From Nitzschia sp. pyKryTriq1 (lineage: Eukaryota; Bacillariophyta; Bacillariophyceae; Bacillariales; Bacillariaceae): a DNA stretch of 64,000 bases. Shown piece by piece: positions 9,621 to 63,369 of this stretch. How positions within the stretch are numbered: position 1 is the first letter of the stretch; each line of letters opens with the position of its first letter. The notes under the pieces are model-generated. The model saw nothing but the letters and a program-made list of their open reading frames with translations. It searched no databases and had not been told where the DNA came from. A program made the position numbers and the translations under genes. The stretch is taken from contig OY101125.1 of NCBI GenBank assembly GCA_956465555.1, positions 1,552,501 through 1,616,500 of the forward strand, read 5' to 3'.

Positions 9621-10070
9621 CTCCGTCTGTCCGTCCCATCAAGCTCGCAACTGGGACGCTCTCTGCTCTCTACTGCGTCTGCACGCGACAAGCTACTGTA
9701 GCCCAAAGGGTTTTCTCTCCGTTCAGTCTATTCTCCCATCACGAATTTACTGTAGTACTGCGATGCGGATCTTTCTTCTTCATCATGGGCACTGCGCGTG
9801 ATGTATCTGAAGACGACGCGACAATAATATGTCATGTTCAAGAACAACAACAACAACAACATCACCCTCCTATACAGCTGCTGGGATGCTGGAGGATGAT
9901 ACTGGTAGCATGGCGAAGTGCTGCTGGCACAACATGCTGGGCTTGCCTTGTTGTTGGTCAAAGTACAGCAGTACTCGTGGGACGAGGAGCCTCCCTGAAC
10001 TACTATATTCAGCAAACAACAACAAGATGAAATGTACTATTATATATTCGGTGATGATGATCATCCTTCA
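9621..10070. other. Intergenic between retroelement fossil and HSF copy D
   Basis: No gene recognised; several short frames on both strands are composition-driven. Confidence 0.4.
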
Positions 10071-13778: not shown

Positions 13779-14169
13779 TACGATAGGGCGAGGGCGTTCA
13801 GTGCGGGCAGTGCATGCCCTTGTAATTGACCAACTCGATCCACTAAAAGCGCTTGTAAAGATCTTTCCTTCCTCAATCTACCGTTATATTATGCTCCTAC
13901 AACTACACGATGTCTTATTATTATTTTGTTCAACAACACAACCAGCTGCTGCTAGAGCATGATACCTGCCACACAGTATAGGTAGAATGGAACAAAAATA
14001 TTTACTTTTTACATGCATTGACGTATACGGTACGGCACCCCCGATGTGCCGATATAATATGTGTGGTGATTATCATGGTGAACAAAACGACGAAGAACAA
14101 GCACTGCGTGATGTATGAGATGATGGGATGTGATATAATATAATTTACCGCGGTATGTGATGCGCAGTT
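13779..14169. other. Intergenic 3' of HSF copy E
   Basis: No gene seen; AT-rich with some trinucleotide runs. Confidence 0.4.
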
Positions 14170-23114: not shown

Positions 23115-25244
23115 CTACTAGAGGCAGCCGGGTACTTTTCCACAAGTGGAGAACGCTGAAGTGCGAAAAACTTAGCTGTAGAAAGCCAGTAGGAATCCTA
23201 CGTAGAAATCTTACTACCATGACCACTCTAGAGACGACTGTTCCAGCGTACCCGAATGCGGAGTATGGTACCGGCGGAAAGGTGTACTCGTACGATCTCA
23301 AGATGGAGATAGGAGTCGAAGAAGGGATGTCAACCGTCCCCGTACCGGTGATTTTCAAGGATTTGATTAAAACTTTAACGGATGCCGCGGGCCATTCCCT
23401 TGTTATTCTCGATACCAAGGACCATCCATGATAGGATCCAAGTCCGCGATCCCGTCACAAACGCAATTATTCCCATCGCAGCCCTAGCACCCGACCAACC
23501 ACACAAAACTCTAGGTCACCAAAAAGCTCCCGCCAAACAGAAAGCTTCCCCGACGGCCAAACAGAAAACACAACTCCAGGTCCTCACCACCAAAGCTCGA
23601 CGCACAGCGACCCTCATTAGCACGAGCCCAATCACTCGGCACGGCGCCACACTGGCATATTACGGCATCTTCATTCCTCAAACCAAGTACCCACTCCCAC
23701 AATCATTCTTCACTAAGGCAGATCTCGACAAGGCACAATCATCAGTGATGGGACCCATCCATGCAAAATGCGGCTACCTGCGAACCACCTCTCACGCACT
23801 CTTATACGCACCGACGTCCCACGGAGGAGCGGGATCTTTAGACTGGTATACACTGCAAGGAGAGGGCCAGATAGCTAACTTTCTGAAACACTGGCGGACG
23901 GACTCCATTATTTCTAAGACACTACGTATCGATCTCGCTTGGAGCCAGTGGCAGTCCGGCCTCTTGCACCCTATCCTCGAAGACACTAATACCCCTCTCC
24001 CGTACCTCGAATGCCGATGGCTGCGGAGCCTCAGGGAATTTCTCGCCCACATTGGCGGTCAAATTCCAGTCTCCCAACCTTACTTACCTATCCTCGAACG
24101 CACCGGCGACATTGGTCTCATGGACCACGCCATCCACATGGAATGTTTTTCACCCGAAGACCTAGCAATTATCAATTATTGCAGATTGTATCTCCACATC
24201 ACTACCATGTCCGAACTTTTCGACGCATCCGGCACCAACATGATATTGCGACCAACCCGAGACCTTTTATCACCTGACCCAATGTAACAACCCTGTATCC
24301 TCTAAATACCAACGGCAACTACCCCAAGCAGTACGAGCCCTCTGCTCCAAATATGACGCCCCGGATAACTTTACATCCGCTTTCATCATTGCCATTGAAG
24401 ACAACCTACGACAAAAACAACCTCTTCAAGAACTACCTACACCAGACAACCTACACTCAGTCATACGGAGCCAATCAGAAATTGGATGGAATCTCTTCGC
24501 CAAGGGCTTCCTAGCCATCGAATGGACACACTACCTACAACAGGAACACTACAAGCGCCAGGACCGGCCTAAAACCTTTGACACTGGAGTCTTCATGACC
24601 GGACTTATCACAACCATATGGACCAGCCTCAGCACACTGTGGACTAATCATCTCAACCACGTCCATCAGAAAGCCGACAACATCCCATCCCCGGAGAAGA
24701 GACTCGAATTGCAGACCAAGATACGAATGCTACATCAACGCCGCCAAACCTGCCTAGCAGCACACAGAGAACGTTACTTCCACGACGATCTTGACGATTA
24801 CCTAGCGCAAGCAACCAACTCTCAAATGGAAACCTATATCAACAATTACGAACCCCGAATATACGCAAGCATAAAACAATCCCAGAACAACGACACATTA
24901 ACTAGCATCCTAGCACACACCGGCTTCACGCGAAGAGCACCGTCCGGCACCAACAGACCCCGCACCACGGCCAATAGTGACGTTCCAATACACCCCAAAC
25001 ATTCCCGATGGCGACCAACACCAAATCTTGTGGACCGATTCCGCAATTTCTTCAAACCCACCTAAACAACATCACACACCTAACCTCACTTCTCCCCGAA
25101 CAGAAACCGTGACGTCCCTGTCACCCCCGGGTTGTTAACGCCTCCCCGTAGATCTCTGCGATTGTCCACTCCTCTGGGAATGGCTACCAAAGGACTACGT
25201 AAAATAGATATTCATATTGCTATTGCTACTAGAGGCAGCCGGGT
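23115..25244 (+). mobile_element. Retroelement fossil flanked by a 19-bp direct repeat
   Basis: A remnant in plus orientation. It begins with a leader and a small N-terminal frame (about 23219-23431), then a long region (about 23440-24290) resembling the part downstream of reverse transcriptase (TLGHQKAPA, SPITRHGATLAYYGIF, YAPTSHGGAG, FLKHWR), and a further C-terminal region to about 25065. The sequence CTACTAGAGGCAGCCGGGT occurs at both 23115-23133 and 25226-25244 and may be a target-site duplication or terminal repeat. The class is uncertain (LINE-like is possible). The copy is broken at a few points and lacks most of the polymerase core. Long open stretches suggest moderate age. Confidence 0.6.
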
Positions 25245-25481: not shown

Positions 25482-27400
25482 TTAGAATGAAGCACGATAG
25501 TTCACACTCCCACCCCCGGCATGGCCGCTATGGTTCATGACACTTCCGTTGCTGCTAGTAGAAGTCGAGTGGTGGTAGGGATTGTTGGCAGCCGCAATCG
25601 TAGTCGTAGTGGCTGGTCTTTTGCTGGCAGTACGGTTCGTCTGATCCAAACCATGATGATGATTACTGTTGGTAGGGATTGAATTCAATGCCGGCCGTTT
25701 GTGTGCATATGGATGAGGAGGATGGCAATACTTCGAGGATGAGGCGGCGATAGCATCGGTGGTAGTATTTGTACTAGCAGTAGGAGTGACAAGAGGCAGT
25801 GGTTGAATAGGGACGCCATCTCCAATAGAAGTGCGACGAGCGTCGTTCACAGTTGGATTGAGTGCTGGTCCAGTACTACCGCTAGTAGTAGTGCTGATAC
25901 TAGCCTTGTTGTGTCCATACGAAGATCTTGGTCGAGAAGCTAGTGCTGGTGCCGGAGGTCCATTCCCAGCAAGCAGAGCACCAGCACGAGCAGTTGTTGG
26001 ACTGCTAGAACTCATCATGAGCATAATGCTAGTCGTTTCCTCTTCTTCCATCGACAGGCTAGCACTAAAGAGAGCACTGTTTCGAAGTGAATCCATGGGC
26101 GTTGGAGGCGGAAGCACAGGTCCATTGGTAGGTCGAAGAACGGGAGCTGGTACTGGAGCCACTGATCCCTTTGTCGGCTGCCGAGGTTGTTGGTGAGCGG
26201 AAGTACTAGAAGTACTGACATTATTGCTGTTCGGATTGTAAGCTTGAGCCGTTGCTGTCGTCCTCGAAGGAATAGAAGAAGAGGGCTGCTGATCCGGCCT
26301 ATTGCTACTGGTGTTGCTGCTCCACGAGGATTGGTTTCCATTCTGGCGTGGTTGGGCCACGGCTTGTGTGTTGCTAGATGATGAGGACGAATCGTTTTGG
26401 TTCACAGAGGAGGCGGATGCTGGAAGGATTCGACCACTATTATTGCTGATGTTGTTTTGAGCAGTTATAGCATGCGATGGTGGATTCGAAGCTGCAGTAG
26501 TACTTGGTAGGATCGGCTTCGTCTCCGCTATGGCTGGTCCTGCTGGTAATTGTTGCTGGTTCTGTTGCTGCTTGGTTGTTTGATCCTTTGGAAAGCCAAA
26601 CTTGCAATTAGCTCGTTCGATATCGTATCGATCCAGAGCGTCCTTGAGCGTGACCGGTGCCTTGCTGACGCTAAAGTTCCCTTGATACAGAGCTGGCGGT
26701 GCATCATATCAAATCACATCGTGTCGAAATCGTTAGTGATGTATGAGTACTCGTACGAGTAGACAGAGAAAGAAACAACACACCAGTAGAAGTCGCACTC
26801 ACAATTCCCCAACTTATCTCCAAAATGCCTAGCCGCCCGCTTCATGCCATCCGTAATACTCGCCTTCATAGCATTCGCCACGGCTGTCCCGTAAACCCGA
26901 TCCGTCGCATCCCCCGCTCCACAATCTTCCCGAAAGGCTCCCGTCGCCCGATGCGTCACTCGTACCATGGAAGTGTACGTGACACAAAACTTTCCATTGC
27001 TTTCATCCTTGATACAGTTCTCTCGTTCGGACTTGACAATTTCCAAGTTCCAACCTCCATATCCAAAGACATCATTCAAGGTTCGAGTCACTCCGTCTCC
27101 GGAAATATACGTCAATTTCTTGTTGCCAGGCCCCGGACGTGTGCTTAGTTCGCCTCGCAAGGGTTTGGTGGCGAGCAAACGATCGATCGAAACGGGGCGA
27201 CCATGATGATCGTGCAATACGCTTCCATCGACTGGGTTATAGACCCAATGAATAGGTTTGGAGGGCGGCGCGGACGACGGCGGGTGGTAGTTTCGCAGCG
27301 TTTCTTCTTCCAGCGAAGAGTGGTGTTGATGATTCTTCAACATGGCGTTGGCTGATGGAGGATGAGCATGAGCATGAGCATGAGCATGAGAATGATCCAT
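25482..27400 (-). CDS. RAD52: RAD52-like recombination protein
   Basis: Two exons (27400-26803 and 26692-25482) give 602 aa. The 110-bp intron (GTGAGT...GCCAG) falls in the codon after GN and restores GNSLYQGNF. Residues ~86-220 are the Rad52 N-terminal domain: RPGPGNKKLTYI, NDVFGYGGWN, NGKFCVTYTSMVRV, REDCGAGDATD, ANAMKASITDGMKRAARHFG. These match the ring-forming, ssDNA-annealing part of Rad52. The N-terminus is His/Ala-rich. The C-terminal ~380 residues are N/S/T/P-rich and carry no recognisable RPA- or RAD51-binding motif. It probably mediates single-strand annealing in homologous repair in the nucleus. The exon join was checked by frame: codons downstream of the junction run open to the stop. 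Confidence 0.9.
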
Positions 27401-27748
27401 GCTTGCGGGGTTGGACGTAGACTACAGTATATCGATGACTATGACGAGAGGAGAGAGCGAAGCAGAATAAAAGCGTGTCGCTTGTCGCCCACCATGGTCG
27501 ATCTCAACAAGAAACATTGCACTCTGTCCCCATCATCACTATCGATCCTGCATCGATACCGCGATGTTGTGGGCTAAATAATTCAAAATGTAGGTGGCTT
27601 GGCCGGCGTGTGATCGGTCGGACCGATCAGCGACGACCGATGCCCGATCATCGAGAATCAACCGCGTGCGCATCGCGCGGCCAGCAGTTGAAGTTGTCGA
27701 ACGGTCTGATCAATTCGAGCCTCCGATCAAGGCGACTTCTTCTTCTTC
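27401..27748. other. RAD52 upstream region with a 19-bp palindrome
   Basis: Contains the perfect odd palindrome TGATCGGTC-G-GACCGATCA at 27611-27629, about 210 bp upstream of the RAD52 start. More GATCG-type words lie around it (27600-27725). It could be a regulator site or an incidental repeat. No gene seen. Confidence 0.45.
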
Positions 27749-41093: not shown

Positions 41094-42230
41094 CTATACT
41101 TGCTTTTTCTTGGCCGCCGTCGACCGAGGAAAGAGTATTTCTTGAAAGTTGCGCCATACGCCCAAATCGTAAATGTTCTTGTTGTTGTTACGGGAGGGCG
41201 ACGTGCTGCTGCTGGTGGTCTTTGTTGTTGATGTTGTTGATGACGATGATGAGGATTCTATTAATGATGTTGAAGGTCCTCCTCGATATTGATGATTCGG
41301 CTGATTCTGCTTCTTGTTCTCCCATTTGTAATATTCATTGGTCGTCATCCCTCGTGCAATGTTACGTATATGAAAGGCCCAAAAGGCCAGCAACATGACT
41401 GCCACGACGTACAGTGCCCAAACTACCACTGCCAAGAGTGGATTATAATACGGATTCGCAGTAGAAGTAGCAGCAGCAATTGTCGATGTACTACTACTTC
41501 CACAAGATGCCCAAAAGATCCATCCCGTCATGATACTTCCATAAGCACACGCGAACGCATGGACCGTCAAAAAGGCGAGAAAATGCCGATAATTATCTTC
41601 TCCAATGGCTTGATTCAACCAACCGCAAAAATGATCAAATCGAGGGACTTGACGTTGGGTATACCGATCAAACTTGCTCCTTGCCAGTTTACGAATCTGG
41701 AGGGTAGGACAAACATGATCGTCGGAATACAAGACATTGTCGTACGCATAATTGTCATAGATGGAAAGAGTACCGGGAGTAATATCTCCGGGAGGAGCAA
41801 GAGATGCAATGATCCATGTGACGAGGCAGGATCCAAAGGCGATGTAGCCCAAGGTCCGATGAATGTCGGGAATCGTGTCATTATGAATGGCTTGGAGAGG
41901 ATAGAATCGGAGGAAAATAATGATCCAAACTCCGTAGACACCCAAAATATAAATGCACTGTTGCACACGTGGCGTTAGTTTCATCCTTCCCTTGTTTGTT
42001 TTATTGCTCCGATTTCCAGCGCTATCATAATAATCCAGATCCTCACCATCACCACCACCACCACTACTACTAATACTACTACCGACGTTTGTCTTGTTCG
42101 ACTTGGACGTGTTCTTGTTGCTATTATTCTTGCAGCACACCTTTTCCAATTGCACAAAGAGAAAGTAGCATGGATTCACAAAGAATTGACCCAAATCACA
42201 GGCATCATCAAAGACTTCATTTTCGTCCAT
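41094..42230 (-). CDS. Divergent DHHC-type palmitoyltransferase (DHFC core)
   Basis: A single exon of 378 aa. Predicted membrane segments lie at about 92-112, 128-146, 215-240 and 262-290, two before and two after a cytosolic core, as in zDHHC S-acyltransferases. The core has CPTLQIRKLARSKFDRYTQ followed by FDHFCGWLNQAIGEDNYRHF. The catalytic signature is DHFC (199-202) instead of DHHC, and most of the zinc-binding cysteines of the usual Cys-rich domain are missing. The catalytic Cys202 is kept. A TTxE-like site (TTNEYYKW) follows the last membrane segment, as in the family. It probably transfers palmitate to cysteines of membrane proteins; loss of zinc ligands leaves activity uncertain. ATG at 42230 chosen as the first in frame. 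Confidence 0.85.
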   Translation of the reverse strand: MDENEVFDDACDLGQFFVNPCYFLFVQLEKVCCKNNSNKNTSKSNKTNVGSSISSSGGGGDGEDLDYYDSAGNRSNKTNKGRMKLTPRVQQCIYILGVYGVWIIIFLRFYPLQAIHNDTIPDIHRTLGYIAFGSCLVTWIIASLAPPGDITPGTLSIYDNYAYDNVLYSDDHVCPTLQIRKLARSKFDRYTQRQVPRFDHFCGWLNQAIGEDNYRHFLAFLTVHAFACAYGSIMTGWIFWASCGSSSTSTIAAATSTANPYYNPLLAVVVWALYVVAVMLLAFWAFHIRNIARGMTTNEYYKWENKKQNQPNHQYRGGPSTSLIESSSSSSTTSTTKTTSSSTSPSRNNNKNIYDLGVWRNFQEILFPRSTAAKKKQV

Positions 42231-43098
42231 GCTGATCCTGCTTGTTCTTATCGCCTTTATTAGAATAATAATCTTGGTGTTGTGGTTGAAGAGAGCTAGG
42301 AGGAATGAGGAAGAGTGACAGTCGTACTAAACTACTTGTACCGGCGGCGTACTAATCATAGAAATGCTATCATCCTTTTGTTGTTTCTTCTTCTCCTCTC
42401 CTCCGTTTTCTCGTTGGTGGTCAAAAGCGCACAAAAAGTCGACGATCGCTCATCGCTCGTTGGTCGGTACGTAGTAGTCTCTACTACTAGTAGTGAGAGG
42501 AATGATGAGAAGTCGTCGTCGTCGACATGGCAATCGGAAGAGCCGGCACAAAATAAAGGCGAAGCTAAACCGGTCGGTAATAGCTAAAAACGAAGTTCGT
42601 TAGTCATCGTCCGGGGAAAAAGGACGAAGGAGGTCCCCGAGGTGTGTCGTTGCCGAGCGTGCAAAGCGTCGCCCGGCGCGTGTTCCTGATAACACGTGCC
42701 CTCGTGCATTATTATTATTGCAAGCAACGGTATGATACTGTAGTAAATAAGTAGCGCAAAATAATGCATGAGCCCGGATCGATGCCAGAGCGCAGGGTTC
42801 GCAAAATAATATGCATGAATCCTAAAGTACGTAAACGCGAACGCTGATGAATCTTTGCTTGTTGCGTCGAAGTTGATTGAAATTTTCAACAACAACAACA
42901 GCAACAGCAACAACAACAACAAAAATGGGAAACCGACGATCGACGACGAGCGACGACGACGGGAATTTTTCCTTCACCTCCTCCTTCGCACTATTCCTCA
43001 TCAAATCTTTGTTTGTTGTCGAAGTTGATTGAAAGTGTCAACAACCACAACAACAACAACAACAACAACAGCAACAAGAGCAAGTGAATAACAGCAAG
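42231..43098. repeat. Divergent promoter region with duplicated leader
   Basis: Lies between the palmitoyltransferase and ATPase starts. A segment GAAGTTGATTGAAA.T.TCAACAACAAC with a following CAA-repeat occurs at about 42868-42920 and again at about 43020-43080, a spacing near 152 bp. The ATPase leader thus appears to have been partially duplicated. No separate gene supported. Confidence 0.5.
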
Positions 43099-46000
43099 AT
43101 GGGAAAGAAGGAAGCTGAAAAAACGCCCGAGGTGGTACGTGAAGTGCCACCATGGCATTGCATGTCCAAGGAGGAGGTCTGCAAGGAAATGGGCCTCAGG
43201 GATGACATTCGACGCACAGGACTGACCACCGCCGAGGCCGCAGCGCGCCTGGAGAAGTACGGCGAGAACAAGATGACCGAGGCCGAGAAAGAGACTCTTC
43301 TGCAGAAGATCTGGAAACAAATCAACAACGTGCTTGTCGGCATTCTCGTCTTTGTGGCCATCATCTCGGCCATCTCTGCCATCGCCGGGATTGGAAATCC
43401 AGTGCAGAACTGGATTCAGGTTGGAATTATCGCTGCTGTCATCATGTAAGTACAAGTGTGGAAATTTTGACACAATCACAGGTGAATTGGTATTTGGTAC
43501 GATCGGCTCTCGCTCATCTCACGCTCTGAACCCCTCGATCCGCTTCATTTCGCCTTCAGCATCAACACCGCCATCGGAATCATCCAGGAGGGATCCGCCG
43601 AAGAGGCCGCGGCCGCCTTGAAGGCCATGCTTTCCCCCGATGCCGTCGTCGTGCGCAACGGTGAAGAGACCAAGGTGCCTGCCGGCCTTGTGGTGCCCGG
43701 AGACGTTGTCATTCTGTCCCTGGGAGACCGCATTCCTGCGGATATCCGCATGTTCGAGGTCAACAACATGGCATCGGCCGAAGCGGCCTTGACTGGAGAG
43801 TCGGTCCCCATTGAAAAGACCACGGCCGCCATTGTGCCCAAGGACGGACTCAACCCCAAGCAAGTCCCGCTTGGAGACCGTCACAACATGTGCTTCTCTG
43901 CTACCTTGATCGCTCAGGGATCCGGAGCCGGTGTGGTCATTGCCACGGGAGACTACACGGAAATTGGTACCATCAACAAGCTCGTCAGTCAGGTGGAAAA
44001 GAAAAAGACGGCTGTCTTGGAACAGATTGATATCGTCTCGACTTACATTGCCATCTTTGTTGGTACTGTCGCCATTTTCACTTTCTGTTACGGCTTTTTG
44101 ACCACCGACGAGGAATGGCTCGTAGCCCTCAACACTGCTCTGGTATGCGCCGTCGCCATGATCCCCGAGGGATTGGAGGCTATCGTTACCGTCTGCTATG
44201 CCTGGGCTGTCTCAAAAATGGCTGCAGAAAATGCCATCGTCCGTGCCCTCCCTGCCGTCGAAACCTTGGGATCCGTCACCACCATCTGCTCCGACAAGAC
44301 TGGTACTTTGACCACCAATGTCATGTCCTGTGTGGCCTTTGTTACCTCCAACGCGCACTACAAGAACAATCCTCATGCCAGCGAGCGCAATTCGAGCAAC
44401 TTTATCCGTGAGGATGAATACTTGGCCGAACGTGCCGACCACCTGAAATTGATCAAGGCCCGCGATATCATCAAGAAGGGACCAGGTGCCTCTCGTCACT
44501 CTCGCCACAAGAAGAAGAAGTCCCCCAACGACTTCCAATACACCATGAATGACGAAGAAGTTGACAAGGTCGCCGGAGAAGAAAAGACCGATGATGCCCC
44601 CGCCCCGGTATCTGGTGTCAAGATTTACTACCACGACGCCCTTCCTGTTCGTCAAGGTGCTTCCCCCGAGATGTCCTACTTCCGCCAAGCCCTTGCCACT
44701 GGTGTTTTGTGCTCCAAGTGTACTCTTGGAAAGAACGGAACCCGTGAAGGCGAGATTGGTAACCCAACTGAACTTTCCATTCTTCGTGCTGCTTATTGGA
44801 CTGGTGTCGACGTCAACGCCATGAAGACATCCTCGCCCATCATTGCCGAGGTCCCCTTTTCCTCAGAGTACAAGTTCATGGCTACTGTTCACGCATCCAA
44901 CCCTGAAAATGATGGCCCCGGTATGGAAAACAAGCTTATCATCCACGTCAAGGGAGCCCCCGACCGTATGGTCGCCCTCTGCAACAAGCAAGCAAAGGCT
45001 GGTTTGCTCAACGAAACTGAACCCATCGACAAGGAATACTGGCTCGAAACGATTGCTGTCCTCTCTTCGCACGGTCTCCGTGTCTTGGCTCTTTTGCGAG
45101 GAACTCTCGACAAGGGAGCCGTCACCGAAGGAGAGAACCTCAAGCCCGACTTTATCCGTGACAAAGAACCCTGGCTAACTTTGGTCGGCCTATGTGCCAT
45201 CATGGACCCTCCTCGCCCCGAATGTATTGATGCTATTGAAGAAGCCCATTCCGCTGGTGTCCGTATTGCAATGATTACTGGAGACCACAGGGACACTGCC
45301 CTCGCTATCGGAGCCGATCTCGGACTTGTAGACGCCAAGCACGCGCATGCCATCACTGGTCCCGAACTGGATGCGATGAGCGACGACGAAATGAAGGCTG
45401 CCGTCATGAAGTACAACGTCTTCGCTCGTGCCTCCCCGAGAATAAGATTCGCATTGTCAAGGCTCTACAAGCTCAAGGCGAAGTTTGCTCGATGACTGGA
45501 GATGGTGTCAACGACGCTCCCGCCCTCAAGGCCGCCGATATGGGTGTCGCCATGGGTAAGGAAGGAACTGATGTCGCCCGTGAAGCCGCCGAGATGATTC
45601 TCGCCGACGATAACTTTGCTACCATCATTGTGGCCGTTCGAGAAGGACGTGTGGTCTGGGATAACCTCCGCAAGGTCCTCATGATCAACACCCCTATCAA
45701 CAACGCCCAAGGTCTTTCCGTCCTCTTTGGTCTTGTCTGCGGTCTTCAAGACAATGCCCTCACTGGTATCCAAGTCTTGTACTGTAACTTGATCTGCGCT
45801 GTCACTCTTGGATTCGTCGCTGCCGTCGAGCCTGCCGAAGATGGTATCATGGACGTTCCTCCTCGCCGTGTTGGAAAACGTCTGATTGGTCGATACCTTT
45901 TTTTGCGAATCTTCATTGGTACTGCCGTCATGGTTGCTACCACTGTTGGTTCCATCTTCTGGTGCCAGGAAGTGTTCAAGAACGAAGGCCGCGAATACGA

Positions 46001-47425: not shown

Positions 47426-48385
47426 TTACTTGTAGCCCATGAATTGAATTCCGACGGTTCGATCATTTCGTGGTCCATCCAAATCGACCAACAATATACT
47501 TTGCCACTTTCCAATGACCATTTTTCCATTGACGACTGGAATACTTTCCGAACTTCCCAAGAGCATGCTCAATAAATGGGAATGCGCATTGATGGGTTCT
47601 TGATCTCTCCACTGTTGCAGAATTTCGGGATTATCAATATCCCATCCATTCTCCCGACATCGTTGCGCTTCTTCTTCTCCGTCGGGACGTTGATCAATAT
47701 CATTATGAAAATATCGACGTCCACCAGGTACCGCCGCTGCCGCCGCTGCCGTGTTTGCTGCTGCTGATGCTGATGCTGCTTCACTTCGTTCATCCGGAGG
47801 GGCCAAATCTTGAAGAAAAAACTGTTTCATATCTTGAACGAGCCGTTGTTCTCGTTCATTAATCGTAATGGCTGTGGTCGTATGACGAGAAATTACCGTG
47901 ACAGTCCCCTGTTGCATACCACTGCTCTGTAATAATTCCATAATGGTGCCCGTCAAGTCTTGGACAATCACGTCTTGTCGTGGAACAACGACGACGACGG
48001 CTTGTTGTTGTCCTTGCCCGCCAGCTTGAGCAGACGTCGTCGTCGTCGTCGTTGTCGTCGGAATGATGGTCACTTGATGATATTCACAAATGGGAGCACC
48101 CAACACAAACGACTGCTGCTGTTGTGCTGATGAATATGGGGATGATGATGATGATGAGGATGTTGCATGAATGTTCGTGAAGACAAGTCGCGAACACTGC
48201 GTCTGTTTTTGCTGCTGTGCTGGAGAAAACGACTCGGCCGAGGAAGTGATGGATGAAAGGATGAGGCCTACTCCGGCGAGTACCAGGTAAAAAGGAGATT
48301 TAGCTGGTGGACATTGTCGTTGTCCTCGTTGTCGTTGTCCTCGTTGTCGTTGTCCTCGTTGTCGTTGTCGTCGATCATGCCCCAT
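47426..48385 (-). CDS. YjbQ/UPF0047 family protein with organelle-type leader
   Basis: A single exon of 319 aa from the ATG at 48385. Residues ~100-319 match the YjbQ (UPF0047, secondary thiamine-phosphate synthase enzyme) family: VTVISRHTTTAITINE, YFHND, then AHSHLLSMLLGSS, VVNGKMVIGKWQSILLVDLD and a DR at 309-310. The conserved His, Asn and Glu positions are kept. The bacterial members are small (~140 aa); here the extra length is an N-terminal leader and a Q/A-rich insert. The leader has a basic RQRQRGQ repeat (2-24), a hydrophobic core (31-48) and then SAESFSP, which resembles the Phe at the +1 position of diatom plastid-targeting leaders. Plastid or secretory import is therefore likely. 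The true substrate of the family is not settled. An 18-bp tandem repeat (about 48307-48372) encodes the basic repeat. Confidence 0.88.
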   Translation of the reverse strand: MGHDRRQRQRGQRQRGQRQRGQRQCPPAKSPFYLVLAGVGLILSSITSSAESFSPAQQQKQTQCSRLVFTNIHATSSSSSSSPYSSAQQQQSFVLGAPICEYHQVTIIPTTTTTTTTSAQAGGQGQQQAVVVVVPRQDVIVQDLTGTIMELLQSSGMQQGTVTVISRHTTTAITINEREQRLVQDMKQFFLQDLAPPDERSEAASASAAANTAAAAAAVPGGRRYFHNDIDQRPDGEEEAQRCRENGWDIDNPEILQQWRDQEPINAHSHLLSMLLGSSESIPVVNGKMVIGKWQSILLVDLDGPRNDRTVGIQFMGYK

Positions 48386-49444
48386 GGCTAATATCAATAA
48401 TTCTACAAGTAGTGGTACCAGGTACCGGTATGTAGGAACAACAGAAAGAATACGAATAGGTTGCGGTGTTGTTGTTGTGTAAATGATATAGGTAGTCGAG
48501 TAGAGTAGAAGGAGTGTAAGTGATGGTACATTAGTTGGTCGCCACCGCCCATACTACCGGTATGCATAATGTTGTGGAAAATCTTCGTCTTTCGACGACC
48601 GACGACTGATGCTGTTTTGATTTTTGATTTTGACATTACGTACACGTACGTCATCGACGGTACACGTACCGGTACGTCACGTGTTCGACCTCTCCCGCCG
48701 CACGTATCGCGCTTTTTTGGGTCCGTCTGACCGTCTCCACGTTCAAGAGCTAAGCTCTACTCTCTACAAATGCTCTCTACTCTCTATTACTAGTAGCTCT
48801 ACTCTAGTAGTAGCTAGTAGAGAGTAGTACGACTACTACTACCGGAGTAGCTTCTCGAATAGAGTAAAAGAGTCTTCGTTTGTTTGTTAGTTAGAATAGT
48901 CTAGAGTAGTAGCGCGAGGGCGAAGAACTTTTGGGAAAATCATCATCATGATGAAGTCCTCATCATCAATCAATCTTCTTTTGCGAACCCCGACCGCCGC
49001 AGGAGAAAACAAACGAGAACGCCCACAGCTTCCACTGAAATGACATATGCCCGAGGCATATGTGGATACCTTTCGGGCTTATTAATATTTATATCTACTT
49101 CAAGAACGGGATTGGATGTTGTGGTGATGATGATGCCGCCGGATACTACACTATACTACGAAGTACGTAAGAGTGGTATTAGACCCACTCCCGCCTTTCG
49201 TTTCGTTGTATGATTTATGTTTGGCATCTACTAATAGCTCTTCGTCTTCAGCTCTGTTAGTTGTTGACACAACAACACCAAGTCCGCAATCGGATCGATT
49301 GCATAAATAATCAACAACAACAACACAAACATTATTCGGTACATCTCTATATCGATCGATCGATCGTTCGTTCGTTCGTCGAGTAGAATCGAATCGAATC
49401 GAATCGAGTCGTCAAACAACAACCACAGCAGCAACAACAACAAC
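48386..49444. other. Divergent promoter region
   Basis: No gene. GTACCGGTAC words near 48418-48430 and 48655-48676, CTAGTAGTAG near 48785-48835, and (TTCG)n/(ATCG)n repeats with (GAATC)n at about 49355-49410 just upstream of the next gene. Confidence 0.45.
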
Positions 49445-51337: not shown

Positions 51338-52030
51338 CTATACTACATCATCATCATCCATGAGAAACACGCAAAATTGTTCGTCATCCGTTTCTTCCAG
51401 CAATGCGTGACGCGGACAAGTCGTCCTCGTTTTGGTACTAGTAGTAGTAGTAGAAGAAGAAGAAGGATGATAGTAGTATCGCTGCTCCATACTAGTACCT
51501 TGTTGTTCTTCGTGTTCTTCTTCTCCTTGTTCCTCCTCGATACTACTACTTCTAGGATTGGAATGACGGGTGTGGGTTATACGTTGAATGATGCTGATAT
51601 CGGGGTCCTCCTCCTCGCCGCTTGCAACAGCAGCAGTCTCACTTGTCGAAGAACTCATCGAGGAGGATTGCCGACCACGTAGTTGTCGTCGTCGTTCTCG
51701 AATTCCATTGACAATACGACAGTACATGCAGTAGTCTCGATAGTCGGCAGCAGCTTCAGCAGCCTCCCGCATGAGTTGTTCTTGTTGTCGTTGTTGCAAT
51801 TCGGAAGCTGGGGGCTTCATGGTTATGGTGGAATAGTAATTGCTAGTAGTAGTACTATTAGTACGACCACCAGCAGCAATTGGAATCGATTTTGTCGCCG
51901 ACACGACGGAGGAGGATCGAAGTCGTTGTCGTCGTGGCGGGTAGAAAGAATAATAGGCATCATCATCATCATCATCAGACGATGGAGACTGCTTGGTGGA
52001 AAGCTGCTGCTGCTCGTGGTGGTTCTTCAT
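51338..52030 (-). CDS. RIVNG-box disordered protein, paralogue 1 of 3
   Basis: A single exon of 230 aa. I do not recognise the family. Four short boxes are shared with the genes at 54011-55372 and 56837-57706: TKSIPI (46-51), ASELQ...AAADYRDYCMYCRIVNGI (75-110), ISIIQRITHTR (145-155) and the C-terminal VFLMDDDD (221-228). The rest is acidic or S/Q-rich. The middle box probably forms one amphipathic helix; the ends look like short linear interaction motifs. No signal peptide, membrane helix or catalytic motif is visible. A small regulatory or adaptor role is inferred only from this form. It is the shortest copy and has an insertion between the first two boxes. Confidence 0.75.
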   Translation of the reverse strand: MKNHHEQQQLSTKQSPSSDDDDDDAYYSFYPPRRQRLRSSSVVSATKSIPIAAGGRTNSTTTSNYYSTITMKPPASELQQRQQEQLMREAAEAAADYRDYCMYCRIVNGIRERRRQLRGRQSSSMSSSTSETAAVASGEEEDPDISIIQRITHTRHSNPRSSSIEEEQGEEEHEEQQGTSMEQRYYYHPSSSSTTTTSTKTRTTCPRHALLEETDDEQFCVFLMDDDDVV

Positions 52031-54010
52031 GATATGGTCGTTCTTCTTCTGGAGTCGACGACAATAAGTGAAATTGCGTCCTGGTGACCATCAGCGACGA
52101 CGACGCCGACGACGACTCTTTTTCAGGCTAAAAGCTCAGGATATTATCATCCAATTCCGCGATATTATGATGATGAACGATGTTTTATGAGCATGCGGTA
52201 GGTTTTGGCCTTTTGAGGCTATTCGAAACCACGGCCTATCCAAGGCCGTTGTTTACGCCTCCAGTTGGTACCTTTTCTGTATCAAACGTACGGTAGAATT
52301 TTGGGGTGTTTGTACGGACATTACGCAACGCCTCAACATACGTACTCGTACAGGCGTACAGAGCAGAGACAGCAGCACGAGCATCATCAGTCTATTTTCA
52401 AAATGACGTAGTTTCAATTCGCTGCTCCAAGCGAATTGTATTTACCGGTATGCTCCATGTTCTTCCACTTCTTACTTACCGTACCACACATACTGTACTT
52501 ATTGCGGCCGTTACAGTTATTTGACAACAACATAAGCAACGGACGGAGATGTCAATCCAATCGTGCATGCATGCCGGGGTGTCAGAAGGACCATGGCTCG
52601 GCCAATCAACATGCTTGATCAGATAGAAAGAATAAGGAAACAGAGAAAGAAGAAGAACCGACCGAATTATCATCAACGACACAAGACACAACGGACAACA
52701 ACGACGAACGACAGTATTTCCCCTTTGACTTTACCTACGGTAGCTACAGTACTACTATGTATGGCTGGTCTACGACTCTTCTACTGCTACAAACTACTAG
52801 TAGTAGTAAGAGAGAGAGAGAGAGAGAGAACGAGTATGTAGCTCTCTAGCTACCGGTACTACCGGTACTAGCTATTGCGGAGCTTCGTTGGTTGTGTCGG
52901 CGTCGTCGTCGTCCTCTCCGAATCTACTAGTACTCTACTAGATACTGTACGATTTAGCAGTAGAAGGCAGGCGGGAGAGTTTGTCTTCAGCGCGGACGAG
53001 CAGGACGACAGCTGATGACACCATCATCTGCTCTACTCTACTCTACCGTACTACTACTAGACGATCAATCGTGGGAAGTCAAGAAAATGAGGATGATGCA
53101 ATTGCAGCAGCATCATGATCTAAATAAGACTATTCTCTAGTTTTTAGAGTATCGGAAAGCAAGGTCACCAAGACCCCCCGGCGGGCAACAGAATTATCAT
53201 GATCGAGGACATCATCATGATGATCGACATCATCATCATCATCAATCAATCAATAACCGAATCTTCAATCAAATCTTTGCGTACGTACGTACGTACTCCT
53301 TGCAAGGAATCGAATCATCTCGTCATGCAGCAGCATCTACTACTACGTACTCTACTACTACTACTGCGGCTCCAACCAGCAGCTAATGTCCGGTTTGCTA
53401 TCATGATATACTACTCCTACTCCTACTCTCATAATAGACTCTTAGCTATATCGTACTCGTAGCTAGCTCTACTAGAGCTACTAGTACTAGTACTAGTATT
53501 TCTTGAGTTGAGTTGAGTCGACTCGAACCGTCCAACACAACCGATGGTGTGCTACAGTACTAGTATGCTGCTGCTGGTAGACCACTAGTAGACGTAGTAG
53601 CTAGAAGAATAGAAGTGCAGATACTAGTAGTGTCTCTATTAGTACTAGTAGTAGCAAGAATAGTGTGTGTTGTTTTCTACCTTTTGTTTTGGTGGTTGTT
53701 GACGTCCTCGCTAAGCGAGACTCTAGCTTTCTATGGTGGTGGTGGTGGTGGTGGTGTAGCGTCATGTCTATAGTTTTGTATTGTTGTTGCAAAACAGAAA
53801 TAGAGTAGTAGTAGCAGTAGTAGTAGTAGCAGCAAACAGAAAAATGGGCATATGATGTTGCTGTGTCCATCATCATCGTCGTGTTGTTCTGTCTGGTGGT
53901 GTTGGTGTTGGTAGCATCAGTCGATGATGGTCAGGATCGTTCTTGTTCCAGAGGGAGAAAGCGTGTAGTACTTCATGATCGAACATTCATTCATTCATTC
54001 CTTCGTTCGT
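52031..54010. other. Long intergenic stretch, repetitive
   Basis: No gene seen. Features include (GA)n near 52810-52830, TACCGGTACTACCGGTACTAG near 52852-52870, (GTAC)n near 53281-53296, a (GGT)n run near 53732-53755 and many CTAGTAG words. It also holds the promoter of RIVNG paralogue 1. Confidence 0.45.
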
Positions 54011-55372
54011 TCAGAGATCATCCATGACAAACACGCCATCCTCGACTGCATCGACTTCAGATGCAGCCCCATACGACGAGTAGCATCCCGGATGTTGTTG
54101 TAGCATAAGATTGCCGAGTCCTCCACCCCCTCCACTGATGCTAGTAGCAGTAGCAGTAGTAGAAGAAGGAGGCGGCAGCAGCAGCAAAGGTGCCATGATT
54201 GTCGGAGCGGCAAGCATTCTGGAAGCATTGGGGGAGGATGACGAGGATGTAGTAGTATCCTCGAAGAATGGATTAATAAGTTGCTGTTCTTGTTGTTGTT
54301 GATTGATCTTGTTGTTGGTAGGAGTTGGATGATGACGACGACTACTCGTCATGGTATTAGAGTGTCTTTCCAAACCTTCCTTCATGTAGTAGCTCATGTA
54401 GCTAGTAGAAGGTTGTTCTCCTCCTCCTCCTCCTTGAATAATCATGGGATCATCATCATGTCGGGTACGAATGATATGTCGAAGAATCGTATCATTGTCA
54501 CTACTACTTCTAGCGCGGCTGCTGCTGCTGCTGCTGACGGGCAATTCCGTCCAAGACCGACGTTGTTGTTGTTCATGAATCCCATTCACAATACGGGTAT
54601 ACATGCAATAGTCTCGATAATCAGCGGTAGCTTGATCTTCCAAGAGTTGCAATTCGGAAGCGGTACGTTTCATGGAATCGCTGTCAATCGGAATCGATTT
54701 GGTCACAGCACCACCACCACCACCACCAACCGCAGCAGCAGCAGTAGTAGATGCTGCTGGTAGTGGGGGAAAGGAATAGGACGAATTCTTGGATGCTATG
54801 GGACGCCACGTCTTGTGGTTGTTGTGGTTGTTGTTCGAATCGGTTTTGGATGGGTAGCTTTCTTTCAAGCTTTTCGATCTGCTGCTGTTGATGCTCCTAC
54901 TGGAGCAGGATGGATACTGTGTCACCAGGTCAGGCGTTCTAGTTCCCTTTTTATTAGTATTGCTGGAAGGAGAAGAAGAGGAGCCGCTACTAGTATGACC
55001 GCTGGAAGTTGAGTCCTTGGAAGAGTCCTTGAAGAATGAGTCCTTGGATGAGTACTTGGACTTGGACTTGCTTTGCTGCTCTGGTGGCTGTTGTTGTTCC
55101 GAATGTGGATAGCCTTGATGCAGTACCCAAGGAGATGGGTCCTCGAACAGCAGGATGCGATCACCAGTGCTGCTGCCGCGGCGAGAAGAACCACGCACTT
55201 GTACACGGCCATTGGACAGATCATCATGATCATCATCATCATGATGATTGTAGTACGAGTGGTACTCGCGAGACGTAGTACAAGACGATGATGGTTCGTC
55301 TCCTCGTCGTTCACCATTGCGATGGTTCATTCGCAACGGGGCAATCTTGGAGTCTAAAAGGCTTAGATTCAT
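54011..55372 (-). CDS. RIVNG-box disordered protein, paralogue 2 of 3
   Basis: A single exon of 453 aa from the ATG at 55372 (MNLSLLDSKIAPLRMN). The frame is open for another 135 codons upstream, but that part is made of GACT, ATCG and TTGGTG simple repeats and looks like untranslated leader. A start there would add a hydrophobic segment. Boxes: VTKSIPI (about 54687-54707), ASELQLLEDQATADYRDYCMYTRIVNGI (about 54575-54658), ILRHIIRTR (about 54468-54495) and the end DGVFVMDDL. Between them are long S/N/T/P-rich and G-rich runs. The order and rough spacing match paralogues 1 and 3. Homology to any named domain is not recognised; it is probably intrinsically disordered and nuclear or cytosolic. 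Confidence 0.75.
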   Translation of the reverse strand: MNLSLLDSKIAPLRMNHRNGERRGDEPSSSCTTSREYHSYYNHHDDDDHDDLSNGRVQVRGSSRRGSSTGDRILLFEDPSPWVLHQGYPHSEQQQPPEQQSKSKSKYSSKDSFFKDSSKDSTSSGHTSSGSSSSPSSNTNKKGTRTPDLVTQYPSCSSRSINSSRSKSLKESYPSKTDSNNNHNNHKTWRPIASKNSSYSFPPLPAASTTAAAAVGGGGGGAVTKSIPIDSDSMKRTASELQLLEDQATADYRDYCMYTRIVNGIHEQQQRRSWTELPVSSSSSSRARSSSDNDTILRHIIRTRHDDDPMIIQGGGGGEQPSTSYMSYYMKEGLERHSNTMTSSRRHHPTPTNNKINQQQQEQQLINPFFEDTTTSSSSSPNASRMLAAPTIMAPLLLLPPPSSTTATATSISGGGGGLGNLMLQQHPGCYSSYGAASEVDAVEDGVFVMDDL

Positions 55373-56836
55373 GGATTGACTGACTGACTGACTGACTGAT
55401 GATGATACTGATACTGATAATGATGATGATGATGGGAATAAGGATGGATGGATGGTGGGATGAATGAATGGATCGATCGTTTGATTCTTGTGGTGATGTT
55501 GGTGTTGGTGTTGGTGTTGGTGTTGACGATAGCAGGTTGTTCGAATCAATGAATGTAGGAAAGGAAAGAAAGAAAATGGATGGATAGGAAAGACGATCGA
55601 TCGATCGATCGAGCGAACGAACGAACGATATAATAATATGATGGCACAAATAAGAAGTGTTCCTAAAATCGGAATTTCTGCCTTCTTCCCGTCATCATCA
55701 TGCACGCGTGGTGATGGTGCAACCTTCAACCTTCCTTGTTGCTTGTGGTTCTCCATGCAATATCGCATCGCGCTCATATTTACCTAAACATCAATCGTTA
55801 CTAATAAATATTTCTTCCACGTGTCCCCGTACATGTTCTACGCGACAGGATCTTGACATGGACTTCGCGTCCATCCGCCACCACCATCACCACTTAAGGA
55901 AGTTTACCCCAACCACCGACCGTTGCTCATAATGTACCGTATGATGTACCGGTGGTACTGTACATACTCCCTCGTACCGGGGTACGAACTGTCGGGACGG
56001 AGAACACCATGACACGCTACAATTTTGTCCACACACGCACGCACTTTCTTCCGTGTGAAACCTGCGAATTTGTTACGAAAAGCAATAATATTCAAAACTT
56101 CGTGATGTTCCCATTCTCTTTCCCAAACTACTGTACTAAGCCCCATGTATATATATCCCATAAATGATCATTATATAGAAAGAGAATCCAGCGAGTTAGC
56201 GAGCATATTATTTTTTGTTGAACAACAAGACTAGACTAACGAATCATCATCGAATCTCAAACGGTACCGATATTATTATTTATGACCCCCCTGATGATAT
56301 CGATCAGCCGATCCTCGACGACTCGTACGACTTAATCTTGATTTTGGGGGTCGGGTTCCTCTCCTTGCCTTCCGCCGGGCGCCGGCCGGCAATCTTCCTC
56401 GAAGTAGTTCGCTGCGGTTCGCTGGTCGCGAGGAACACAAATTCCGTCGGTTTCTTGGTCTTTCGGAACTTGACCTTTTTTCATTGGAGGAGGCCTGTCG
56501 CATTGTTGTCAAGGACATCAGGAACTTCCCTTGCCTTGGGCGGAATTGATTTTGTGAGCCACAAAATAAAGTAATAATAATAAATCATTGGATGGATGGC
56601 GATGAACGTGTTGAATGAATCTTCCCCGCCCGTCGTCGTCGTCCTCCGATATATTGAAGTACTACTACCGGAATATGGTAATTATTTGAGAGCCGCTTTG
56701 TTGACACAACACACATATTGTAAAAACAACCATCCAATTTCCGCCTTTCCATCACGTCATCATCAATCACCACAACCATCACCATCAATCATCATAGACA
56801 ACATTACAAGTCAACTGCTACACCACCACCATAATA
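55373..56836. other. Intergenic between divergent RIVNG-box paralogues 2 and 3
   Basis: Holds the leader repeats of paralogue 2 (GACT, GATGAT, TTGGTG and ATCG units, 55375-55630). A GC-rich block at about 56310-56520 has open, basic frames on the minus strand but no recognisable family and no consistent start. Otherwise no gene seen. Confidence 0.4.
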
Positions 56837-57706
56837 ATGAGACCGATTTCAGAAACTCTTACATCATCATCATCATCATCGCATCGCATCCCTCTTACTT
56901 CTTCTTCTTCCGAACGAATGGCAGAGGAGAATACAAACAGCAGAATCCACCCGTCAAACCACAACAACAACCCTCATCCCTCCGACGCTACTTACCCGCC
57001 ATTATCATTGGATGATAATCAGCATAATCATCAGCATAATCATCAGCATCGTCATCAAACCCAGCACCAGCACCAGCATCCTGGCAGCAGCAACACCAGC
57101 AAAAACAAAAACAAAAACAACAACAACAACAACAAGTCCGCACCTATCCATATTCCAGGCTGTGTGAGACGAACTCCATCCGAAATTCAATTACGTGAAG
57201 ATGAAGCGATGGCAGAGTTTCGCGACTATCTCATGTTTGAAAGAATTGTCAATGGCATGACAAAGAACCACCACCAGCAGCAGCAGCAACAACAACAACA
57301 GCAGCAAATTCAACAAGCGCCGAATCATAACCAGCATCATTCCAATACTCATCATCAGCATCCGCACCAGCACCAGCGCCACCAAGATCCCACCGATTCA
57401 ATTGTACAGCATATCATTCAAACCAGGATTGATGCTCTTGGAGGTCCTGCTACTTTGGCAATGCATAGAGAACCGACGGAGAGGAGTGATCTCTACTTTG
57501 GTGCCTGGAACCAGCATATTGAACAACAGCAGCAACAACAACAACAACAACAACAGCAGCAAGTTCCGTCATCATCCTCAGGGGGAGGATCGTCTGCTGG
57601 CTACTACTACTATCATCCTTCCAATACAAGCATGGTCACGGAAGATGGCCAACCAGTGCCTCAGTCCAGAAACAATTCGGGTGTGTTTCTGATTGACGAT
57701 CTTTAA
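56837..57706 (+). CDS. RIVNG-box disordered protein, paralogue 3 of 3
   Basis: A single exon of 289 aa, starting MRPISETL; an internal Met (MAEENTNS) is an alternative. Boxes: KSAPI (100-104), RRTPSEIQLREDEAMAEFRDYLMFERIVNGM (111-141), SIVQHIIQTR and the end SGVFLIDDL. Between the first two boxes the spacing equals paralogue 2 to within one residue. Extra shared piece with paralogue 1: YYYHPS before the C-terminal box. Long Q and H runs are encoded by CAG/CAA and CAT repeats. It is transcribed away from paralogues 1 and 2, so the trio is an inverted cluster. Function unknown. Confidence 0.78.
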   Translation: MRPISETLTSSSSSSHRIPLTSSSSERMAEENTNSRIHPSNHNNNPHPSDATYPPLSLDDNQHNHQHNHQHRHQTQHQHQHPGSSNTSKNKNKNNNNNNKSAPIHIPGCVRRTPSEIQLREDEAMAEFRDYLMFERIVNGMTKNHHQQQQQQQQQQQIQQAPNHNQHHSNTHHQHPHQHQRHQDPTDSIVQHIIQTRIDALGGPATLAMHREPTERSDLYFGAWNQHIEQQQQQQQQQQQQQVPSSSSGGGSSAGYYYYHPSNTSMVTEDGQPVPQSRNNSGVFLIDDL

Positions 57707-60016: not shown

Positions 60017-60423
60017 TACTGTACGAGTGCGGTCGGTACTATCCGTCCAACCAAGGATAACGGTCCAACGAACAACAATAATGCCGTGCGTGTTCGACAA
60101 CTACTGCAATTGGATGGATGAGGGCATATCACGCACTGACGACACGCGCGCTCTGCTCTTATCCATCGATCCATCGATCATCCATCTACAGTGGTATGAG
60201 TACTACATATTAGTAGCAGCGATCCATTACAATTCCATCTTGCTTGGTTGCTGCGGTCGGCATTTGTTGGAATAAAGAACAACACATATCGCGGCTTTCG
60301 ACCATTGCATACCCATCCAGCACGCAGTAGTCATATTATAGTCAGCCTGTCATCATTCATTCATTTATTTTATTCACGAGAATAGAAGAAGAACGGCGAG
60401 AGCAGTACCAGTACCGTGTATCT
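60017..60423. other. Upstream region of the dioxygenase gene
   Basis: Contains ATCCATCGATCC-type repeats near 60163-60183 and an AT-rich stretch before 60370. No gene seen. Confidence 0.4.
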
Positions 60424-60749
60424 ATGAATCAGCTCACACCAGCACACCAGCACACCACACCACACCACACCATGCCGCCGCCGACGACGACGACGACTTC
60501 GACGACGACGGCCACTACCGAGGAGAGCATTTCGGCTAACACGAGTAATACCATGGTTATCCAAAGAACCCATGATGATGATGATGATAATTCATCCTTG
60601 ATCGATTACAATGACAACGACAAAAATTGCAGTAGCAACAACAACGGTGGTGATGGCGATGATGATGGTGATGGTGGTGATATTGATGATGATGATGATG
60701 ATAGTGTGACGAGTCAAGATGAGGCATTGATGGAAATGTTGGGACTAAT

Positions 60750-60780
<31 letters not shown>

Positions 60781-63369
60781 TCTCCATCATCATTATCATC
60801 CAGCATGATGGGGATGATCCGAGACGCCGTAGTACTAGTCGAGGAACAACTCGATGACAATGAGAACAAGAACGAGAACGAGAACCTATCAACCAGGCAA
60901 AGGATTGACGATGATGACGACGACGACGACGGCAAGGTAGCAGGGTCGCGTCCACATCCTTCTGCTCCTCCTTTGGCATCAGCACCAGCACCTTCAGCAC
61001 TTTCAGCACCTTCACAATCATCACCACCATCATCATTGCGTAGTTTCCACAAAATTCCACTCCCGCCAACCAAGAATGTATCGCGACATTTTCATTCTCC
61101 CGAAGATTGTTTTGCCATTATCATTCCCAATGTCTTGTCAGTCGAAGAGTGTCAACAATTGATTGCCTTGGGTAGTGGTACGGGTAGTGGTACGAGTAGT
61201 GGTAGTGGTGGCAGTGATGGTAGTAGCAGTGGCACTGCTGGTAGTGGTGATGGTAGCAGTGGTGACAACGGACGATCATCGTCGTCATCGCCATCGTCGT
61301 CATCATCATCATCAACGTCATTATCGTCGTCGTCGTCGTCGTCATTTCAATATATTCGACATGCCATGCATACGGCAACAGATGGAACGCAATACCGAGT
61401 CGAGCTTCAAAATCCCAATCCTCACAAATTATCCGTCTTTCAACAGGATGGTTGGGTGAATTTATTGTGGCAGCGTATCCAACCTATTCTTCTATCAGGA
61501 TCAGGATCATCAACATCAACAGCAACATCAAACTCATCATCAAACTCATCATCAAACTCATCATCGAACTCAACATCATCATCAAACTCAACATCATTAT
61601 CAAACTCAACAACATCATCCACAACACCATCAACAAACTCAACAACAACATCATCAGCATCAAACTCAACAACATTATCTTCGGATCGAACAACCAGAAC
61701 AACACCAGCAGCAAATGCCGCCAACCAACAAGGCGAACAAGACGAGGAAGCACAAGAAGCGGATACTAGTCACTACAAGTCAGAAGAGGAATGCTCCAGT
61801 GAGACGACGACGACTCTTCGAGCTACTACTACTACTAGTAGTGGCAGCAGCAATAATTATACGACCTTGCTCAAGGGTGATTCTGGTCGAGAGGATGTCT
61901 ACTTGAATAGCAACGATGACGATTCTGTTCCACAACGCTCCAAACACAATCCATCCGCCAAAGTACGATTCTCGCCTAAAGTCCATGTTCAGTCTATCCT
62001 TCATCATAGTGGCTACTCAGTTACGGAAAAGCAACGGCTTTGGATGACCCCGGCCGAGCTTTCCGAAATGACGCATCGTAATGTATTGGAATTCTGGACT
62101 GTGGAGCGACGGGATTGGCGTCAAGCGATTGAAGAATCGGACTTTGTACGACTAGTACAAGATGGAAGTCTCGTCCATCCGGCACACGTTCCATCTTTAC
62201 TACCACAACCACAACCACCAAACGACGAAGCATCCATATCATCATCATCATTATCATCATTATTTTTATTATCTTCCTTTTTAAAGCGAGAAAATGTACC
62301 ACCACCTACCGGATTGAATACTCGTCTGCGAGTATTAAAATACGATGCTACCGATCAAGATGAATTCCGTCCCCATTTTGATGCCACGACTCGTATGATC
62401 GGTGGCGGTGGAAATGGTAGTGTTGGAAATGGTGTTGGTGCAAATAATGGTAGTGTTGGAAATGGTGTTGGTGGAAATGGTCGAAGTCAAATCAGTCTCT
62501 TGACAGTCTTGGTGTATTTGAATAGTGGTGGAGGAGTGGATTTTGATGGTGGAGAAACGTACTTTTTGGATGCGTCCACCAATACTACCAACGCTGCTAC
62601 TGGTACTACTGCTACGGCTACTGCTACTACTGCTGCCAGTAGTAATAGTAGTACCAAGGTCGTGCCACAAGCCGGAAGTGTCGTGATATTTGAACATGAC
62701 TTGTTCCATTCGGGTCATTTGTTGGAGTGGGGAACGAAATATGTCCTTCGAACAGATGTCTTGTTTGAACTGTCGGAAGAGGAATGGGAACAACGTCCTC
62801 TCAAGGCTACGACTACTACCATTGAAGAAGGAACTGCTCCTCCTCCTACTGCTACAAGTAGTCCTATCATTCCAGTAGCAGCAGCAGCAGCAGCGACAAC
62901 AACTACCATTCAAGATCTCGTATCGACGATGAACAGGATGAGCTGCTGCTGGACGGAACATGAGCAATCCGTTGTCACAGCTGGACTGGATATGTTGGGC
63001 ATGTTGGAAGATTCCATTGAATCCTTCTGTACGCCAGGACGGTTTGCTCTTCAGCTCATGCTCCAAGATGTCCTTCGCCCGGCTACTACTACTTCTACTG
63101 CTTCTGGTTCTTCTACTGCTTCTGGTTCTTCTACTGCTTCTGCGACTACAAATAGCAACAACAACAACAAAGCTACAAGCAACAGTTCCGATGACGACGA
63201 CGACGACGTCCATGACGAGATACTTGCCAGCAACAGTAGCAGTAGCAGCGGCGGCGGCAGCAGGGGTCCTCGGGACTATCAGATTTTGGCACGAGAACTG
63301 ATTGATCAAGCATTCAAAAGCCTGCTACTACAACGACAGAGGCATCAACAACAACAACACCAACAATAA
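60424..63369 (+). CDS. Prolyl-4-hydroxylase-like 2OG-Fe(II) dioxygenase with large insertions
   Basis: A single exon of 981 aa. The N-terminal ~215 residues are T/D/N/S-rich. A P4H-type fold then begins: FAIIIPNVLSVEECQQLIALG (~220-240), a Gly/Ser insert, FQYIRHAMHTATDGTQYRVEL, a long S/N/T insert of about 160 residues, and NTRLRVLKYDATDQDEFRPHFDATT. Iron ligands are His651 and Asp653 (HxD) and His762 (FHSG); Lys772 in GTKYVLRTDVLF is the 2-oxoglutarate anchor, 10 residues after the distal His as in P4H. LTVLVYLNSG and GGETYF are also in place. It probably hydroxylates proline or another residue. No signal peptide at the annotated start, which argues against the classic ER form. A helical and Q-rich C-terminal tail (~840-981) follows. 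Confidence 0.88.

Follow-up and report, generated by a model that had tools for sequence, protein, structure and literature searches.

Sin3-interaction helices are single short docking helices, amphipathic and loosely similar in Leu/Gln/Ala/Tyr content to the helix described here, and they bind the PAH2 domain. CDC26, a subunit of the anaphase-promoting complex/cyclosome (APC/C), carries a basic residue, P and S/T followed by an acidic helix. In yeast-type acidic activation domains, acidic-plus-hydrophobic composition tracks activation (PMC8137143), and the SUMO-interacting motif has the core [V/I]x[V/I][V/I] (PMC4476178). With these systems we compare a family of proteins encoded in a 64,000-nucleotide stretch (the window) of the diatom Nitzschia sp. 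pyKryTriq1, corresponding to positions 1552501-1616500 of contig C11 in a 40.65 Mb genome of 20 contigs. Three window genes, w1, w2 and w3, share with three genes elsewhere in the genome (c12a and c12b on contig C12, c17 on contig C17) four short boxes in a fixed order, connected by low-complexity linkers whose length and composition vary between members. Our favoured, though tentative, interpretation is a lineage-restricted, soluble and mostly disordered adaptor with two docking sites, perhaps a transcriptional co-regulator.

Three window genes with a common order of boxes

The original prediction assigned three single-exon genes to one family, and open reading frames (ORFs) were found at all the coordinates and on the strands claimed: w1 (230 amino acids (aa), 51338..52030, minus strand), w2 (453 aa, 54011..55372, minus strand) and w3 (289 aa, 56837..57706, plus strand). 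All three frames were open, which is compatible with single exons as far as the nucleotide sequence can tell. The w2 frame stays open upstream to another ATG, giving 588 aa. The proteins also differ outside the boxes as had been stated, w1 and w3 being 29% and 35% identical to the w2 protein (alignment A3).

The order of the boxes was the same in w1, w2 and w3: KSIPI, KSIPI and KSAPI, respectively, followed by SE(L/I)Q ... A(D/E)(Y/F)RDYxM(Y/F)xRIVNG(I/M), by box 3 and by a tail ending at the stop codon. Box 1 is SIPI in w1 (51878..51889) and w2 (54686..54697), and SAPI in w3 (57137..57148). The helix core of box 2 in w1, placed by alignment, is ADYRDYCMYCRIVNGI (51701..51748). Box 3 was predicted as I-x-x-I-x-x-T-R; this is literally true of w1 (IQRITHTR, 51566..51589), but the first I is replaced by L in w2 (LRHIIRTR, 54461..54484) and by V in w3 (VQHIIQTR, 57404..57427). 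An I one residue earlier is found in w1, w2 and w3 alike. The tails are VFLMDDDDVV, directly before the stop, in w1 (51341..51370, worked out by hand from the ORF), VFVMDDL in w2 (54014..54034) and VFLIDDL in w3 (57683..57703).

Six members on three contigs

Repeated protein searches of the genome revealed six members on contigs C11, C12 and C17. To the window trio they added three homologues that keep the order of the boxes: c12a (183 aa) and c12b (178 aa from the ATG), which lie on the same strand of C12 with about 4 kb between them, and c17, a single copy of up to 224 aa. The w3 protein as query returned itself, one C12 locus and w2 at E<=0.001, and the box 2 peptide of w2 matched six places. 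When the cores of the three outside members and of w1 were used as queries, only the six members or subsets of them were retrieved at E<=10 (six places in one search, five in the three others). Six is a lower bound, and introns could hide a further member.

Comparison of the six sequences led to a revision of two of the predicted boxes. S-x-P-I of the first box is present in all members, but the preceding K is replaced by Q or P in the three outside ones. The tail pattern V-F-(L/V)-(I/M)-D-D holds for the window members, whereas (V/I)-F-x-(L/I/M)-(D/E) fits all six better, the outside tails being IFDLEL, IFDLDL and IFDMEL. The consensus over six reads S-I/A-P-I; T/P-x-S/E-E-x-Q/E; A-D/E-Y/F/H-R/K-D-Y/N-x-F/M-Y/F-x-R-I/V/L-V-x-G-I/M; I/L/V-x-x-I-x-x-T-R; and a C-terminal V/I-F-x-L/I/M-D/E. 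Because of an 8-residue insert, w1 was excluded from the alignment of the cores (A2, five of six members) and from the helix-face statistics.

A hidden Markov model (HMM) of boxes 1 to 3, without the tail, was built from the three outside members and compared with the 653 stop-to-stop frames of at least 50 aa in the window. At E<=1 it matched exactly w2, w3 and w1 (E values 2.5e-18, 6.6e-12 and 4.5e-10), and the best E value among 3918 shuffled or reversed frames, calculated for the same database size, was 0.09. Since the model was built without the window genes, these genes confirm a profile that they had no part in shaping. A tail pattern written when all six members were already known matched seven of 855 ORFs of at least 60 aa, taken from the window together with five regions of 10 kb each, and six of the seven belong to the family. 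Another tail pattern, applied to 864 ORFs, lists five of the six members and misses w1, whose tail is longer.

Translated frames from the surroundings of the C12 pair (20 kb) and of c17 (10 kb) were compared with those of the window extended by 10 kb on each side, and no common neighbour gene was detected. The only similarities between these regions were the family itself, two matches of 20-29 residues, and one short repeat that occurs both on C12 and in the 10 kb preceding the window. This is a short inverted repeat (L026:3-729 on C12 and L029:2017-2722 on C11) whose main translated pieces of 56-117 residues are 79-98% identical. The C12 copy is about 8 kb away from c12a, the C11 copy about 59 kb away from w1. 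The C12 pair is flanked by kinase-like frames, one on each side, which resemble each other.

Age of the copies and selection on the core

In the 16-codon core the nonsynonymous distance (dN) was 0.05-0.55, whereas the synonymous distance (dS) was 1.2-2.5 in seven of the 15 pairs and not estimable, owing to saturation, in the other eight. This pattern, read on a core of only 16 codons, suggests old copies kept by selection on the protein. Synonymous sites near or past saturation imply that the local copies, too, are old; the closest pair, w1 and w2, has 15 of 16 core residues in common. The view that the family was amplified locally is therefore right only in part: the three window genes do form a cluster, but all copies are old and members occur on three contigs. 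As each protein is mostly of low complexity and poorly alignable, one could suspect decaying or non-functional orphan ORFs with residual similarity. The low dN relative to dS in the core, the six intact frames and the tails preserved right at the stop codon make this very unlikely.

Predicted helix and disorder

The structures of w2 and w3 were predicted with AlphaFold2, each on a 3-row alignment of the window proteins. The mean predicted local distance difference test (pLDDT) values of the two models were 48 and 53, and 342 of 453 residues in w2 and 183 of 289 in w3 scored under 50. Both modelled members thus appear to be mostly disordered with one confident helix, as had been proposed. The predicted helix spans residues 238-272 in w2 (54557..54661; block pLDDT 93, 94 and 85 over residues 241-270) and residues 114-158 in w3 (57176..57310; 89-95 over residues 111-150, 73 over 151-160), where it has a Q run at its end; both sets of nucleotide coordinates were worked out by hand. 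Box 3 was modelled as a low-confidence helix in both proteins, residues 185-200 in w3 and a short helix overlapping the box (residues 295-301) in w2, and the tail as disordered. In w3 a third low-confidence helix (residues 216-238) covers a Q run.

In both models the helix starts directly after the T of a T-x-x-E sequence (T237 in w2, T113 in w3). This T is present in five of the six members, w1 having P instead, whereas the E is invariant, and at the other end the conserved core is closed by an invariant G, then I or M. We infer that T-x-x-E and x-G-(I/M) may serve as helix caps, the former resembling an N-cap box and the latter a C-cap.

The beginning of the helix also permits another interpretation. 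The conserved E is directly preceded by S in five members and by E in the sixth (c17), and R is found three residues upstream of the S in four of the six (w2, w3, c12a and c12b). The proteins could be signalling regulators, disordered and controlled by a kinase or phosphatase, in which the S/T of R-T-A/P-S-E would serve as switch, with the enzyme docked by box 1 or by the basic residues preceding it; by eye, w2 and w3 fit the basic-x4-hydrophobic-x-hydrophobic shape of MAP-kinase docking sites. In w1 and c17, however, the corresponding sequences are K-P-P-A-S-E and R-G-P-T-D-E-E, so that the basic site is not universal, and helix capping accounts for T-x-x-E equally well. We consider a signalling regulator unlikely, if worth keeping in mind.

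The C-terminal tail

Windows along each protein were ranked by a score of our own for acidic plus hydrophobic content, and in five of the six members the last 14 residues took one of the first three ranks. With their disorder and their acidic and bulky hydrophobic residues, these five tails may resemble the yeast-type acidic activation domains. The family differs from them in its fixed order of residues at the very C-terminus, where the published work stresses composition (PMC8137143), in the missing upstream acidity of w3 and in the lack of a DNA-binding domain.

The tails also recall SUMO-interacting motifs, in that all six members end in a short hydrophobic stretch with acidic residues after it, and the proteins might then be SUMO-dependent scaffolds. 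The published core of the motif (PMC4476178) was, by eye, matched by none of the six tails: they have an invariant F at position two, unlike the described motifs, and D at position three in three of the six. We therefore regard this possibility as improbable. Two other types of tail were considered and rejected. A PDZ-type tail was judged by eye, position -2 being D, L or M, and an ER-retention-like tail was weighed solely against the absence of an N-terminal hydrophobic stretch. In a crude hydropathy scan of the six members (19 residues) none reached the threshold mean of 1.6; the highest value was 1.18 and the best N-terminal one 0.14. By this crude measure the proteins would have neither signal peptide nor membrane span and would be soluble.

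Domain, structure and literature searches

The claim that no named domain fits was borne out by Pfam-A, in which none of the six full-length proteins exceeded a curated cut-off (best sub-threshold E values 0.025 for w3 and 0.071 for c17). A scan of five cores, all except that of w1, gave one unrelated match at E 0.1. In the PDB the profile of the same five cores had no match at E<=1 and the c12b core alone none at E<=10. The profile gave one pattern stretch in viral contigs and 51 in prokaryotic genome contigs, none of which was confirmed. Literature searches with the box words plus 'diatom', and on diatom disorder and gene-family topics, did not meet the family in the titles or abstract starts returned. 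The family is undescribed within the scope of Pfam, the PDB and these paper texts, and other diatom proteomes probably contain unannotated relatives. Genomes of this kind commonly encode orphan disordered families, and we therefore regard this one as a further example, if one of unusually clear anatomy, rather than as a new kind of system.

The sub-threshold match of w3 (residues 111-188, 15.9 bits) was to PF10471, the CDC26 family, with which w3 shares a basic residue, P and S/T before an acidic helix. A diverged CDC26 relative docking into tetratricopeptide repeat (TPR) grooves was nevertheless largely refuted and is scarcely credible: the score is under the curated cut-off of 24.5 bits, the alignment enters the Q run, the motif is internal in w3 and absent from the other members, and neither the other five full-length proteins nor any of the five cores scanned (that of w3 included) matched at E<=1. 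Moreover, a genome search with PF10471 found one place over the cut-off outside the family, on C5 (25.6 bits, 22 positions, in a 78-aa frame), and one further sub-cut-off place on C12 at 1.61 Mb, which is not a family member either.

A possible adaptor with two docking sites

In the adaptor that we tentatively propose, the helix, capped by T-x-x-E and x-G-I/M, would be preformed and, on account of this capping, would be the main docking element. One partner would hold it on several faces, the acidic-hydrophobic tail would bind a second partner, and the linkers would merely set the reach, so that the protein would act as a tether bridging the two. The S before the conserved E, located in the first helix turn, could act as a phosphorylation switch. 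Most plausibly the protein would act in transcription as a co-regulator, its tail contacting the surface of a coactivator; this is our leading specific guess because the composition of the tail is, in five of the six members, like that of acidic activation domains and because the genome contains TAZ and PAH domains (ten and five matches, respectively, in a genome profile search).

Several observations weigh against this interpretation. The TAZ and PAH matches are potential coactivator or corepressor surfaces, and their presence alone does not amount to binding. The w3 tail ranks only 50th among 276 windows by the acidic-hydrophobic score, and a simple pattern for basic clusters of the nuclear-localisation type was found in none of the six members, although the w1 stretches RRQRLR and RERRRQLRGR escape this pattern. 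The structural models cover two of six members on three-row alignments, and both extend the helix beyond the putative Gly cap. Finally, amphipathicity of the helix was significant in none of the five members tested (w1 was left out), as 202 to 1383 of 2000 shuffles reached the observed moment; a simple one-face docking helix is therefore not supported.

The residues invariant in all six members (E240, A250, D254, R260, V262 and G264 in w2 numbering) are spread over several faces of the helix. Taken together with the lack of significant amphipathicity, this is why we read the helix as probably gripped by a partner rather than forming a simple coiled coil. The same data bear on the possibility that it docks a repressor by binding PAH domains, as Sin3-interaction helices do. 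Such a helix would have PAH domains available in this genome and would, like the one described here, be single and short, but no such family appeared in the Pfam scans, the Sin3-type helices are amphipathic, and the invariant D and R of our family lie on different faces. We think this highly doubtful.

Returning to the two-site adaptor, a more far-reaching form of it, possible but distinctly less probable, would make the proteins diatom-restricted hubs, in which two partners are contacted, via undescribed surfaces, by a doubly capped helix whose first turn can be phosphorylated and by a V/I-F-x-L/I/M-D/E peptide at the C-terminus. If this were true, diatoms would have a private regulatory docking code. 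Their well-delimited parts, a single helix, a single tail and two boxes of lesser weight, make the proteins mutable and usable as bait, and so offers a handle on protein interactions possibly private to diatoms. Poorly alignable orphan disordered proteins are easily thrown out; here the identity of the family is carried by the order of the boxes and the tail rather than by overall identity.

Genomic surroundings

An array of heat-shock-factor-like genes occupies 1961-18176 of the window (minus strand) and has a further member at L029:8398-9690, in the 10 kb of C11 before the window. The ORFs at 11221-11898 and 15252-15998 match PF00447, and neighbouring ORFs carry what we take to be the second half of that domain (Y-G/N-F ... 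Y-T/S-H). The ORF at 17355-18176 in the same array, scanned alone, gave nothing in Pfam at E<=0.01. Two overlapping ORFs at 23379-25065, retroelement-like in appearance, had no Pfam match at E<=0.01. Ordinary neighbours recognised in the Pfam scan encode Rad52 (26714-27421), a DHHC palmitoyltransferase (41094-42326), a P-type cation ATPase (43486-45495) and a UPF0047 protein (47426-48553), and a 2OG-Fe(II) oxygenase at 60331-63369 matched slightly under the family cut-off.

Genome-wide, the profile search returned the markers of a diatom genome, with eight matches to PF03842 (silicon transporter) and 72 to PF00504 (antenna protein). The best PDB match of one antenna protein was Fcpb7 of 7vd6, from the centric diatom Chaetoceros gracilis. 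A stretch of about 240 kb on C1 (79892-317295) contains five of the eight matches to the silicon transporter. The antenna-gene matches at C1:4283352 and 4323268 have score-identical partners at C3:3144038 and 3186600, spaced by about 40 and 42.5 kb, respectively, which suggests a segmental duplication. Two further antenna-gene matches at C3:1940953-1943345 are in opposite orientation and of equal score, and each contains one internal TGA and one TAA, pointing to introns or broken frames.

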